Source: Peristeroidobacter soli
GTDB taxonomy: Bacteria > Pseudomonadota > Gammaproteobacteria > Steroidobacterales > Steroidobacteraceae
Assembly: GCF_004138485.1 (NCBI RefSeq)
Contig: NZ_RYEV01000005.1
Coordinates: forward strand, 792,827 to 856,826
DNA length: 64,000 nucleotides
Direction of reading: 5' to 3'
The notes under the pieces were generated by a model, which had not been told where the DNA came from, made no database searches, and saw only the letters and a list, made by a program, of their open reading frames with translations. This document shows positions 52,076 through 58,283 of this stretch, in pieces. Positions within the stretch are counted from its first letter, which is position 1; every line of letters begins with the position of its first letter. Both the position numbers and the translations under genes were made by a program.

Positions 52076-53569
52076 ATGCGCGAAGCCCTTCAAGCAGAGA
52101 ATTCACGCGCTGATTCGCGCGGCTCGGCTGGGCATGCTTCCAGTGAAATGAGCGCGGCGCTGCGTCGTCGAAACCAGCGCGTTCATCATGGCACGTCCGA
52201 GCCGCCGACCGTCGCTCTGCTTCGACACGTGCTGAACCCTTCAGTCATCGTGTTGAGCCTGATGTTGTGTGTTTTCCTGTTTTCTCAGGAATTGACGCCG
52301 TCCTATTTCGCGCTCGCCGCGCTCGCCTTCCTGATCGCCTCACAAGTGGTGAGTGAACCGGTGATGGATTGTTCGGCCCGCAACGGTCTGACCAATCTGC
52401 TTCAGCATCGCATCTTCGCCGAGTGGCTGCTGGTCTCGGCGGCGTTGTTGCTCATGGCGTTCGCCTTCAAGGTCACTGAGACTTTTTCGCGACGGGTAAT
52501 TCTTACCTGGTTCGCGATTACTCCCTTCGTGGTCGTGGCGGCGGAGGCGGGGCTGCGTCGTTACACGGCGTTCTCGGCCCTGCGCGGCAAGATTCAGCAG
52601 AGCCACGTGATCATCGGCGCGAATGAGGCTGGCTCGCGTCTGGCCCGGCGCCTGATGGCACATCCGCATCTCGGCCTGTTCAAGGGCTTCTTCGACGATC
52701 GCGACACCGCGCGTCTGCCCGACATGCCTCAGGAGCAGTTGCTCGGCGGTATGTCGGACATCGTCAACTACGTGCGCATCAATGCCGTCAGCAACATCTA
52801 TATCTGTCTGCCGATGCGCGCGGACGAGCGCGTCAACAAGTTGCTCGAAGAGTTGAAGGACACGACTGCGTCCGTGTACTTCGTGCCTGACATCTTCATG
52901 TTCGATCTGATTCAGGCCCGGGTTTGTGACATCGACGGCATTCCGATGCTCGCGGTGTGCGAGACGCCGTTCGCCGGCCTCGACGGCGTGATCAAGCGCG
53001 CCAGCGACATCGTATTCTCTTCGGTGCTGTTGTTGATGCTCTGGCCGCTGCTGCTGCTGATCGCCCTCGGCGTGCGGATGAGCTCGCCGGGTCCCGTCCT
53101 GTTCCGGCAACGCCGCTACGGCATGTACGGTGAAGCCATCAACGTGTTCAAGTTCCGAAGCATGACGGTGTGCGAGGACGGCGCCAAAGTCACGCAGGCA
53201 CAGAAGAACGATCCGCGCGTCACGCGCTTCGGCGGTTTCCTGCGCCGGACCTCGCTGGACGAACTGCCGCAACTCTTCAATGTGTTTCTCGGCTCGATGA
53301 GCCTGGTCGGGCCGCGGCCGCACGCCGTGGCTCACAACGAGGAATATCGCCGCATCATCGAAGGCTACATGCTCCGCCACAAAGTGCGGCCGGGGATCAC
53401 GGGCTGGGCGCAGGTGAACGGCCTGCGCGGCGAGACCGACACGGTCGACAAGATGCAGCGCCGGGTCGAATTCGATCTGGACTATCTGCGCAACTGGTCC
53501 CTGGGACTGGACCTCACCATTCTGTTCCGGACCGCTTCGCTGGTGTGGCGCGACCGGAACGCCTATTGA
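52076..53569 (+). CDS. Undecaprenyl-phosphate sugar-1-phosphate transferase (WcaJ-like)
   Basis: About 497 residues. Four N-terminal membrane segments are followed by a nucleotide-binding-like domain ([16 protein letters not shown]), a fifth membrane segment and the catalytic domain: [52 protein letters not shown], and [39 protein letters not shown]. Such enzymes load the first sugar phosphate on undecaprenyl phosphate to begin exopolysaccharide synthesis. No glycosyltransferases or export genes are in view, so the rest of the pathway must be elsewhere. Start choice is uncertain; ATG 52076 lacks a strong site. Confidence 0.9.
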
Positions 53570-53580
53570 AGGGTAGAGCC

Positions 53581-53682
53581 ATGCGTAAAACACAACTCCA
53601 CGTCTGGATCGCCATGATGTTCTGCGCGCTCGCGATGGCGGCGCAGGCGGTCAAAGCCGGCGCCTTCCAGCTGCCGTTCTGA
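53581..53682 (+). CDS. 33-residue exported peptide between exopolysaccharide genes
   Basis: This small frame begins at ATG 53581, eleven bases after the sugar-transferase stop, with AAGGG seven bases upstream. Residues 1-5 are basic, 8-21 hydrophobic ([14 protein letters not shown]), and A-Q-A and V-K-A sites allow cleavage, leaving a mature tail of 7-10 residues (GAFQLPF or [10 protein letters not shown]). Its stop is two bases before the next ATG, which itself has no clear ribosome-binding site, suggesting coupled translation. Function unknown. Confidence 0.6.
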
Positions 53683-53684
53683 TC

Positions 53685-55160
53685 ATGCAGGAGCCGAATG
53701 CCAGTGACGCCGGCACGGTCCGGCTCGCCGCGCTCCTTCGTCATTTGCAGTCGGAGCCGATCGAGCACGTCGTCTCGGAAGAGCTGACCGACGAGGCCTG
53801 CTCGGGCGTGGAGCTCACCGCGACGATCGTCGTGGCATCGGAAACTTTGCCGCTGTTGCCCCCGGTATTGAATGAATTCTGTCGCCGGCACGAGATGCAA
53901 CTGGTGCATCACTGGTGCCGGGGCAGCGATGAGCTGTTCCTGTTGAGCTGGCTCAACGAACGGCAGCGACCCGACTTCATGGCCCTGCACGTGAAGCGGC
54001 ACGCCGCGAAGCAGGGCAGCTGGTGGCAGCGAAAGCGCGATCAGTGGCGACGCTGGCGTGAGCCGTCGGGATTGCTGATCGCGTGTATCGGCCCGGATGG
54101 CAGTGGCCGCAGCAACGTGGCGGAGCACTTGGGTGCCCAGCCACTCGCGCCGTTCCTGGCGGCTCACAGAATGGAGCTTCGACCGCACATCGTGCGGCCC
54201 GTGCCGGTGGATCCGGAGTCCCGCGTGCCGCGCGGCCGGCTCGGCACCATGGCCAAGCTGATGATGTTCGTCGCCGATTACTGGTTGGGCTATTGGTGGC
54301 AGATCCGTCCGAAGCTGGTGGCCTCCACCATGGTGGTGTCGAACCGCTATTTCGACGACATCCTGGTTGACCCGGGCTACTACCGCATCGATCGCTTGCG
54401 CAGGCTGGCTCGCTGGCTGTTGCCCTGGATTCCGCGTCCCGGGCTGTGGCTCGTGTTCGATGTGCCTTGCGAAGTCTTGCAGACGCGAACGCGTGAGGTG
54501 GCGGCGGCGGAGGCCGCACGATTGCGCAGTGAATACCGCAAAGTGCTTCGGCGTCGTCGTGAAGATGTGGTCGTGCTGGATGCCGAGCAGCCGATCGATG
54601 AGGTGTGCGCAGAGGCGGAGCGAGCGATCGTCGCGCAGCTTGCGAGCCGGACCGCTCGACGCCTCGGCTTGCCCGACACGAGCAAAGACAATCCGACGTC
54701 GACGGACGTGCTGCTGTTCTTCTGCCGGCGACACGTGCCGGTGCTGAGTAAGCTGATTCGTGTGCTCTTCAACAGCGACATCCATTGCCGCTTGCCGGGC
54801 GATGTCCACATGCCGCATCCCTATGGCATCGTCCTGCACCGACAGGCGGTCATCGGTCATCGAGTCACGATCATGCAGCAGGTCATGATCGGCAGTCGCG
54901 ATGGCGACCCCAACATCGCTCCCGTCATTGGCGATGACGTCACCATCGGCGCGGGCGCGCGGGTTCTGGGCGACGTGCGTATCGGTAAGGGCGCCACCAT
55001 CGGCGCCAATGCGGTCGTGACCCGCGACATTCCTCCGGGCGCGACGGTCGTCGGCGCGGATCGTATCGTGGCCACTAGTCGCAATTCGGCGACGCCGGGC
55101 GGTGAGGCTGCCAAAGTCGCTAAATTTCCGCGTCCGCCGCGTCAAAAACCTGCTGCTTGA
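53685..55160 (+). CDS. Kinase-like P-loop/hexapeptide acetyltransferase fusion
   Basis: A 491-residue protein with three parts. Residues 1-115 resemble a worn nucleotidyltransferase-like domain. Residues about 130-325 are a thymidylate-kinase-like P-loop domain with GPDGSGRS at 136-143, where Arg142 replaces the Walker A lysine. Residues about 350-475 are a left-handed beta-helix acetyltransferase of the serine O-acetyltransferase type ([66 protein letters not shown]). Location suggests polysaccharide acetylation. I cannot name a characterised homologue with all three parts. Confidence 0.8.
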
Positions 55161-55388: not shown

Positions 55389-58283
55389 ATGAGCGACTCT
55401 TTGCGAGCTTTGCTCGACTCTACGCCTCTCGGGGCTGGCAACGCCCCCTACGTCGAATCTCTCTACGAACAATTCCTTGCTGATCCGGGATCGGTCGAGC
55501 CCAGGTGGCGCGACTACTTTGCCGGTCTAATAAATAGCGGGGGCAAAGCGGGCGGCACCACCGATGTGGCGCACGGCCCGATTCGCGACGCGCTCGCCAA
55601 GCGTGCCTATACGATCGGTGCTCCCACTGCGGCGGCCCCCGCGACGCCGGCCGGCGATGCCGCGGCGGCCAAGCAGGGCGCCGTGTCCCGACTGGTGCAG
55701 GTCTACTCGAACCGGGGCCATCTGGTCGCCGACATCGACCCGCTGGGTCTGATGAAGCGTCCGGTGCCCGAAGTGCTCGAGCTGTCGCACTTCGGTCTGA
55801 GCAACGCGGACCTGGAGACCGAGTTCTTCACCGGCAGCCGCACCGATGCGATCGCGAAGCGCATGAAGCTGAAGGACATCGTCGCTCAGCTGCGCCAGAT
55901 CTACTGCGGCACCATCGGCGCCGAGTTCGCCCACGTCTCCAACTCCACCGAACGGCTGTGGTTGCAGAACCGCTTCCAGGAAGGCCGCGTCACCAACCGT
56001 TACTCCGCTGAAGAGAAGAAGACGTTCCTGCGTCATCTGACCGCGGCCGAGGGTCTCGAGCGTTATCTCGCCACCAAATATCCGGCGCAGAAGCGCTTCT
56101 CGCTGGAAGGCGGCGATGCGCTGGTGCCGCTGGTCGACGATCTGATCCAGCAGGGCGGCCTGCGCGGTATAGAAGAAATGGTCATCGGCATGGCCCACCG
56201 CGGTCGCTTGAACCTGCTGGTGAACGTGGTCGGCAAGTCGCCGCAGAAACTGTTCTCCGAGTTCGAAGGCATCTACGACACCAACCACATGCAGGGTTCG
56301 GGCGACGTGAAGTACCACAAGGGCTTCTCGACCGACATCAAGACCCCGGCCGGCAACGTGCACGTGGCGATGGCGTTCAACCCGTCGCACCTCGAAGTCG
56401 TGAACCCGGTCGTCGAAGGCTCGGTGCGTGCCCGTCAGCAGCGTCGCAGCGACACCAAGGGCGATAAGGTCCTGGCGCTGCTGCTTCATGGCGACGCCGC
56501 GTTCGCGGGTCAGGGCGTCGTGATGGAAACGTTGCAGATGTCGCAGGTGCGCGGTTTCTACACCGGCGGCACCGTGCACGTGATCATCAACAACCAGGTC
56601 GGCTTCACCATCTCCAAGCCCGAAGATGCGCGCTCGACCATGTATTGCAGCGACGTGGCCAAGATGATCGAAGCGCCGATCTTCCACGTGAACGGCGATG
56701 ACGTCGAAGCGGTCGCGTTCGTGACCCGCCTCGCGCTCGATTACCGCATGACGTTCCACAAGGACGTCGTGATCGATCTGGTCTGCTATCGCCGCCTGGG
56801 TCACAACGAGTCGGATGAGCCATCGGCCACGCAGCCGGTGATGTACCAGAAGATCCGCGCGCACAAGACACCGCGTCAGATCTACGCCGAGCGCCTGGTC
56901 GCCGAGAACGTGATCGCCATGGCGGATGCCGATGCGATGGTCGATCAGTACCGTCGCGAGATGGACGAGGGCAAGTCGCAGGCCAAGCAGTCGCTCGGTC
57001 TGATCGGCAACAAGCACACCGTCGACTGGACCAAGTATCACAATGTCGATCTCACCGAGGTGGTGAAGACCGGCGTGCGCATCGAACAGTTGCGCGAGTT
57101 GGCCACCAAACTCACGACGCTGCCGGCGAATCTGTCGTTGCACCGTCAGGTCGCGAGGATCGTCACGGATCGCGAGAAGATGGCCGCCGGCCAGTTGCCG
57201 CTCGATTGGGGCTTCGCCGAGAACCTCGCGTATGCGTCGTTGTTGACCGAGGGTTATGAAGTGCGTCTGATCGGCCAGGACAGCGGTCGCGGCACGTTCT
57301 TCCATCGTCACGCCGTGTGGCACGACCAGAACAGCGTCGAGAACTACATTCCGTTGCAGCACCTGGCGCCGAGCCAGCCGCGCTTCGATGTCTACGACTC
57401 GTTCCTGTCCGAAGAGGCGGTGCTCGGCTTCGAGTACGGCTTCTCGACCACCGAGCCGAACAGCCTGACTATCTGGGAAGGTCAGTTCGGCGACTTCGTC
57501 AACGGCGCGCAGGTCATCATCGACCAGTTCATCAGCTCCGGCGAAGCGAAGTGGGGTCGTCTGTGCGGACTCACCATGATGTTGCCGCACGGCTACGAAG
57601 GCCAGGGTCCGGAACATTCCTCCGCGCGTCTGGAGCGCTTCCTGCAGTTGTGCGCCGAGCAGAACATGCAGGTGTGCGTGCCCTCGACGCCGGCGCAGAT
57701 GTTCCACATGCTGCGTCGTCAGATGAAACAGAGCTTCCGCAAGCCGCTGGTCATCATGACGCCGAAGAGCCTGCTGCGTCACAAGCTGTCGGTGTCGCAG
57801 CTGGACGATCTCACGCACGGCTCGTTCCGTACCGTCATCGACGAGGTCGACGACATTCAGCCGGCCAAGGTCACGCGCGTCGTGTTCTGCTCGGGCAAGG
57901 TGTATTTCGACCTGCTCGATTCGCGTCGCGGTGATGGTTTGCACAACATCGCCGTGGTGCGTGTGGAACAGTTGTATCCGTTCCCGGCCGAGGAATACGC
58001 GGCCATCATCAAGAAATACCCGAACGCAAAGGAAATCGTCTGGTGTCAGGAAGAGCCGCAGAATCAGGGCGCCTGGTATCAGATCCGCCATCGTCTGCAG
58101 GAGTCGCTGTCGAAGGATCATCAGCTGCTGTACGCAGGTCGCGCCCCCGCGGCCGCTCCCGCCACCGGCATCGCCCAGATGCACCAGGAACAACAGCAGG
58201 CGCTGGTCGACGCCGCGCTGCGCTCCACCAGCACCGAAGAATCCCTCCGGCACACCACGCGGCTGAAGGCCGCGCAGAAGTGA
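55389..58283 (+). CDS. sucA: 2-oxoglutarate dehydrogenase E1 component
   Basis: A 964-residue thiamine-diphosphate enzyme, close to the usual 930-950. It begins with the SucA-type N-terminal domain ([24 protein letters not shown]), then has [38 protein letters not shown], the ThDP motif VNGDDVEAV and C-terminal [14 protein letters not shown] and [23 protein letters not shown]-like blocks. It decarboxylates 2-oxoglutarate and transfers the succinyl group to E2 in the TCA cycle. First gene of a three-gene operon. Confidence 0.97.
   Translation: [964 protein letters not shown]

Follow-up and report, generated by a model that had tools for sequence, protein, structure and literature searches.

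The window, which is the whole stretch of 64,000 nucleotides that was analysed, contains a gene coding for a fused protein of 491 amino acids. It is preceded on the same strand by a wcaJ gene at a distance of 115 bases. The features annotated at this locus are as follows.

52076..53569, + strand: wcaJ, undecaprenyl-phosphate glucose phosphotransferase (TIGR03023, 517 bits against a cut-off of 410.75), upstream of the fused gene; the start is an estimate (497 aa, candidate start)
53581..53682, + strand: hydrophobic micro-ORF of 33 aa between wcaJ and the fused gene, ending two bases before the latter
53685..55160, + strand: fused gene, 491 aa; nucleotidyltransferase-like remnant, putative pseudokinase of thymidylate-kinase fold and hexapeptide acetyltransferase (ORF, Pfam, NCBIfam)
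53685..53999, + strand: nucleotidyltransferase-like remnant, aa 1-~105 (alignment with full-length relatives)
54063..54689, + strand: thymidylate-kinase-fold domain, aa 127-335 (phmmer match to Thermus thymidylate kinase; Foldseek), predicted to be catalytically dead or crippled
54090..54116, + strand: P-loop GPDGSGRSN, aa 136-144; the Arg142 codon CGC at 54108-54110 replaces the Walker A lysine
54342..54356, + strand: NRYFD, aa 220-224, equivalent of the thymidylate kinase DRY motif (Thermus D90-R91-Y92), with Asp changed to Asn220
54690..55079, + strand: acetyltransferase domain, aa ~336-465, a helix and a left-handed beta-helix; Asp365 and His378 kept, Pro377, Ile411 and Ala412 at serine-binding positions

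In the list of open reading frames the fused gene starts with an ATG at 53685 and its stop codon ends at 55160. Three full-length homologues align to it with 77-84% identity and the G+C content at the third codon position of the sense frame is 0.78. A rival antisense open reading frame spans 53514-55145, but both the homologues and the codon composition speak for the sense frame, and the possibility of an artefact was rejected. The end of a WcaJ frame was also seen 5' of the homologues at eight other loci (L036, L037, L038, L040, L041, L042, L043 and L014), the last of these belonging to genome G013, where wcaJ is again directly upstream. The next gene on the + strand, at 55389, resembles by eye the 2-oxoglutarate dehydrogenase E1 gene sucA, and the window has no full exopolysaccharide cluster beside the fused gene. 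Three polysaccharide regions were listed in the same genome (G000), none of which could be paired with the fused gene. Close homologues are carried by Peristeroidobacter agariperforans, Steroidobacter agaridevorans and S. gossypii, which places the window in the Steroidobacter group.

The initial annotation had proposed a kinase-like domain followed by an acetyltransferase, and this domain order was recovered in our searches. Residues 129-309 match the Thermus thymidylate kinase (TMK) with an E-value of 4e-6 (phmmer) and residues 358-474 resemble serine acetyltransferases with an E-value of 5e-16 (sequence search). In the Pfam scan the Hexapep family (PF00132) scored 49.5 bits, above its cut-off, and the match to Thymidylate_kin (PF02223) was weak with 17.2 bits against a cut-off of 27. 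A predicted model was built from 15 sequences, with pLDDT blocks of 62-91 in the N-terminal piece past the first ten residues and mostly 66-93 in the kinase domain, where one block scored 53. TMK structures top the Foldseek list obtained with this model (best E-value 1.2e-7), in agreement with the kinase-type fold proposed earlier, and a profile search of the PDB with the kinase alignment gave no match at 1e-12, a threshold that was too strict. The acetyltransferase blocks are of low confidence (pLDDT 26-52), thus the fold of this part rests on sequence and not on the model.

The P-loop GPDGSGRS departs from the Walker A consensus GxxGxGK[ST] at the lysine. Alignment places Arg142, which had been noted from the sequence of the window, at Lys16 of Thermus TMK, with Asn144 at Thr18 and Asn220 at Asp90; the Foldseek list includes the TMK mutant entries K16M, T18V and D90L, in which crystallographers mutated the same three positions, and the numbering agrees. 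Arginine was found in all four close clade members with a sequenced P-loop (the window, L036, L037 and L038/L009), the contig of a fifth member (L010/L039) ending before the loop, so that no loop was counted for it. Lysine occupies the position in 4/4 of the remaining genus members whose loop is intact, as well as in 17/17 outgroups, which are not independent of each other (L094-L096 are from one genus and L046/L049 from one family) and which exclude L045 (a near copy of L044), L092 (identical to L047) and the stand-alone kinase L058, where lysine was seen by eye. For five of these outgroups (L093-L097) lysine was demanded by the pattern requiring GK with which they were excised, although the loci themselves came from a profile search and 5/5 then matched the pattern. 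The patterns used to collect the close Steroidobacter-group homologues and L044/L045 lie outside the P-loop. One search matched 53 genomes, of which only the eight with E < 1e-20 were inspected, and many of the remaining ones are probably ordinary thymidylate kinases.

The clade carrying arginine (five rows, one of them without the P-loop) forms a single branch in the tree with a support of 100/99. Together with arginine in four of four members and lysine in all outgroups, this makes a single change from lysine to arginine that then stayed the simplest reading, and by this comparison Arg142 is a derived, clade-fixed change. It was suggested earlier that lysine throughout the homologues would make Arg142 a chance variant. 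Lysine does prevail in the wider family, whereas the residue is conserved as arginine in the close clade, and as it occurs in four separate assemblies a chance variant or a sequencing error was rejected.

Other positions of the kinase domain were also found to be altered, for the most part in Lys-bearing genus members too. The DRY-position aspartate is present in 16 of the 17 outgroups and is retained in the clade member L009/L038; Asn220 is common to three of the four Lys-bearing genus members. Lys269 of the LID is present in 17/17 outgroups and is gone from all ten genus rows, including the four Lys-bearing members. The decay of catalytic residues thus apparently began before the arginine appeared and may also have impaired the Lys-bearing genus members, so these two changes do not mark the Arg clade in particular as dead. 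Losses of outgroup-conserved residues restricted to the Arg clade are those at Arg142, Tyr232 (replacing a residue kept in 16/17 outgroups) and Met216. Among 37 positions conserved in the outgroups, 24 are kept in the window, 25 in each of the four Lys-bearing members and 19 in G013. On the other hand, Gly136, Gly139, Gly141 and Ser/Thr143 of the P-loop are retained in 4/4 members of the Arg clade, and Arg221 and Tyr222 in 5/5.

The kinase domain was found to be under purifying selection. Within the Arg clade dN/dS values are 0.061-0.142 for the kinase domain (10 pairs), 0.016-0.075 for the acetyltransferase (10 pairs) and 0.127-0.254 for the N-terminal piece (6 pairs), as obtained by simple Nei-Gojobori counts in which some pairs are near saturation. 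The kinase domain is therefore probably retained as a non-catalytic part. Its two halves differ in the Arg clade, where 19 of 42 columns are variable in the P-loop half and 11 of 80 in the acceptor half (Fisher p 0.0003), as against 25/42 and 40/80 in the Lys group (p 0.34); the contrast between the two groups has a z of 2.1 and is a lead and not a clean test, as the half-domain boundaries were picked after viewing the alignment. The acceptor half is nearly as conserved in the Arg clade as the acetyltransferase, which has 12 variable columns out of 118. The domain has the traits expected of a pseudokinase, i.e., a kinase fold, missing catalytic residues, conservation and selection, and we infer that kinase activity has been lost in the window protein.

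The N-terminal domain has also decayed. In other relatives the whole nucleotidyltransferase-like domain has about 230 residues, of which the window keeps the first ~105. In the four Arg proteins 26 residues span a stretch that is 135-145 residues long in five other members of the genus (including L014), which corresponds to a deletion of 109-119 residues from the second half of the domain in the Arg clade. An aspartate triad (D38/D40/D96, formed by SDIDI and a third Asp) is invariant in the eight outgroup domains, and the window domain is without the DxD as well as without the second half. Of the genus members whose sequence extends this far, none keeps both DxD aspartates, L011 keeping the first. 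This motif and the predicted topology suggest a Pol-beta-type nucleotidyltransferase; searches of the outgroup domain against Pfam and NCBIfam gave no convincing match (best E-values 0.015 and 0.0095), and three weak matches were found in the PDB, one of them a nucleotidyltransferase-like protein at E 0.57. The N-terminal domain had been described as degenerate and as possibly adding a third function. It is indeed degenerate, but a lost function is more likely than an added one, the domain being in all likelihood a decayed nucleotidyltransferase.

The kinase domain might be vestigial, i.e., a stable fold left behind when the kinase function was lost and retained solely as a folded N-terminal extension required by the acetyltransferase, with no role in substrate binding. 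One observation in favour of this explanation is a homologue in which the same domain is decaying:

L102:8611-10386, - strand: homologue in G013 (L014), a 591-aa open frame that follows wcaJ, with the P-loop VPQGTSK

In this ruined P-loop the lysine stands and the glycines are gone. The kinase branch length is 0.84 compared to 0.16-0.17 for the nearest rows, and 132 of 208 kinase positions differ from the window as against 95/208 in both L041 and L042, which bear the lysine. The incomplete DxD of all genus members with sequence in that region points the same way. However, the G013 protein is ambiguous, as the catalytic histidine of its acetyltransferase is replaced by arginine (MPRPYG) and this domain is also slightly faster, with 35 of 117 differences to the window compared to 30/117 for L041. 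The whole protein may be decaying, and we rejected G013 as an example of a kinase lost beside a sound acetyltransferase; it is not clean support for a loss of the kinase only. The purifying selection on the kinase domain in the Arg clade and the conservation of its acceptor half also speak against a mere leftover, and we consider this explanation unlikely.

A second alternative, which we regard as distinctly improbable, is that the kinase is active with Arg142 taking over the phosphate contact, making the protein a bifunctional kinase and acetyltransferase. The retained P-loop glycines, Ser/Thr143, Arg221 and Tyr222 are consistent with activity, and a number of the remaining changes occur in the Lys-bearing relatives too. 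Nucleotide binding may survive a change from lysine to arginine, and a residual kinase activity is conceivable. Against this, both Arg142 and Tyr232 replace residues that are kept in all or nearly all outgroups, conservation within the domain is now lower in the P-loop half, and the K72R mutant of RecA was reported to bind ATP without hydrolysing it (PMC4786428).

In the acetyltransferase domain, alignment with E. coli CysE and WcaB places Asp365 and His378 at the catalytic dyad of CysE. The aspartate is kept in all seven fused proteins aligned and the histidine in six, the exception being G013. At the positions of CysE Asp157, Arg192 and His193, the serine-binding residues, the window has Pro377, Ile411 and Ala412, with Pro377 and Ala412 common to 7/7 aligned fused proteins. 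An ordinary CysE was rejected on these residues. The domain has the beta-helix and the catalytic Asp/His in common with CysE and EpsC, but it scores 82.9 and 91.6 bits in NCBIfam, below the cut-offs of 210.65 and 150 respectively. WcaB, the colanic acid O-acetyltransferase of E. coli, likewise belongs to a polysaccharide context and has a serine-acetyltransferase-type domain from which the serine-binding residues are missing; the absence of the serine contacts in both argues for a sugar acceptor. WcaB differs in being stand-alone and in having Glu at the position of Asp365; the identity is 30% and the window domain reaches 53 bits against a WcaB cut-off of 194.65. The serine-acetyltransferase-type beta-helix proposed earlier is thus upheld in fold only, the serine-binding residues being absent, and from its residues the domain looks like a polysaccharide O-acetyltransferase. 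That it instead serves the cell as serine acetyltransferase in cysteine synthesis, under regulation by the kinase part, is very improbable even though no gene of its genome (G000) is above the NCBIfam CysE cut-off and the fused domain is the second-best match there (85.5 bits), given that only 8 of 14 control genomes have a gene passing this cut-off so that a miss means little, that the serine-binding positions are replaced, that a better CysE-like match (90.1 bits) lies elsewhere in the genome, and that 4 of the 14 genus genomes, some of them drafts, have no kinase match at 1e-15.

At this threshold the kinase domain was found in 10/14 genus genomes and in none of 186 other family genomes sampled. 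The family is spread patchily, with a match in 6 of the 398 genomes sampled for the phylum and in 5 of the 296 sampled for the order, the genome of the window being counted in both. Genome G249 carries a three-domain homologue in which the motifs of each domain are intact, and its neighbours are a sugar transferase, Poly_export, Wzz, GDP-mannose dehydratase, a flippase-type protein, a pyruvyl transferase and a glycosyltransferase. A relative in G255 has an O-antigen-ligase-type protein and glycosyltransferases nearby. Ten neighbours of the relatives L044, L046, L050 and L051, chosen by eye as likely polysaccharide genes, were scanned and comprise six glycosyltransferases, one flippase-type protein, one Wzz-type protein and two without a match. 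In the scanned neighbourhoods, glycosyltransferase, flippase-type or Wzz genes stand near relatives assigned to Pseudomonadota, Bacteroidota, Campylobacterota, Chloroflexota and Aquificota. These phylum labels are those of metagenome bins and may be wrong; a near-identical stretch (L044/L045) stands under two labels. Two relatives on Leisingera plasmids, annotated as hypothetical proteins, lie amid flippase, EpsG, glycosyltransferase and dTDP-rhamnose genes. These nucleotidyltransferase-kinase proteins of polysaccharide clusters are direct homologues of the first two domains of the window protein. They differ from it in keeping the P-loop lysine (17/17) and the nucleotidyltransferase triad (8/8), and an acetyltransferase is carried by only one of the 17 outgroups (L055, as read from its ORF). 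A family that is unnamed in the libraries used, composed of a nucleotidyltransferase, a TMK-like kinase and sometimes a third domain, is now tied to polysaccharide genes.

Taken with the domain order, the clade-fixed arginine, the pattern of losses, the purifying selection and the position of the gene, the explanation that we favour, with a probability of roughly 0.6, is a polysaccharide O-acetyltransferase that carries a pseudokinase adaptor. Beta-helix acetyltransferase domains of this type are trimers. The C-terminal beta-helix would transfer an acetyl group from acetyl-CoA, by means of Asp365 and His378, to a sugar hydroxyl of an exopolysaccharide unit, as suggested by the residues and the gene context. 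The middle domain descends from a kinase that is joined to a nucleotidyltransferase in gene clusters for polysaccharides, and in the Arg clade the Walker A lysine has been lost and half of the adjacent nucleotidyltransferase domain deleted. The strong conservation of the acceptor-side half suggests that the former kinase acts as a non-catalytic adaptor, which would bind or position a glycan or a nucleotide-linked substrate, or dock the enzyme to a partner. The hand-over of a nucleotide-linked substrate to the acetyltransferase, which had been proposed earlier, is one possible form of this adaptor role. A more specific version, in which the NMP-kinase fold has become an arm of the acetyltransferase that binds the substrate or senses a nucleotide, is doubtful; here acetylation within one polypeptide would have replaced a kinase step of polysaccharide synthesis, with the arm recognising the old acceptor and the beta-helix acetylating it.

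Precedents for the pseudokinase adaptor come from other proteins, i.e., RecA K72R and EcpK, neither of which shows binding by the kinase domain of the window. EcpK of Myxococcus xanthus is a tyrosine pseudokinase that has been proposed as a scaffold in exopolysaccharide synthesis and also has a P-loop kinase fold without catalytic motifs (PMC12004946). According to the same source it has a BY-kinase fold, is described as having no consensus Walker motifs, is stand-alone and binds a co-polymerase, whereas the window domain is TMK-like and fused to an acetyltransferase. The best match of the middle domain remains thymidylate kinase (PF02223; Thermus thermophilus TMK, 5x7j), with which it shares the fold and the order of the motifs. 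It differs from this enzyme in its altered Walker A lysine, DRY aspartate and LID lysine, in being fused and in scoring below the Pfam cut-off, and there is no sign of thymidylate use. Neither a fusion of thymidylate kinase and acetyltransferase nor such a kinase family in polysaccharide synthesis was found in the open-access literature, as judged by titles. The homologues form a natural series, from all motifs intact (G249), through loss of the nucleotidyltransferase motif with the lysine kept and arginine with selection, to open decay (G013), which makes it possible to ask directly how a dead kinase domain still serves the enzyme beside it.

In other bacteria (L044, L054 and L095) the nucleotidyltransferase-kinase pair continues into a part that, judged by eye, resembles an APH-type phosphotransferase (HGDF.PWN), for which Pfam made no call in the L054 protein. 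Leisingera sp. NJS201 has a separate gene, annotated as a phosphotransferase, two genes upstream. A search for the micro-ORF with a pattern beginning MRKTQ did not find it in L041, L042, L043, L102 and L101. Its position and sequence pattern are common to L036, L037, L038 and L040, silent and non-silent codon changes are about equal in number and thus give no sign of selection, and its product is possibly a small membrane or secreted peptide.
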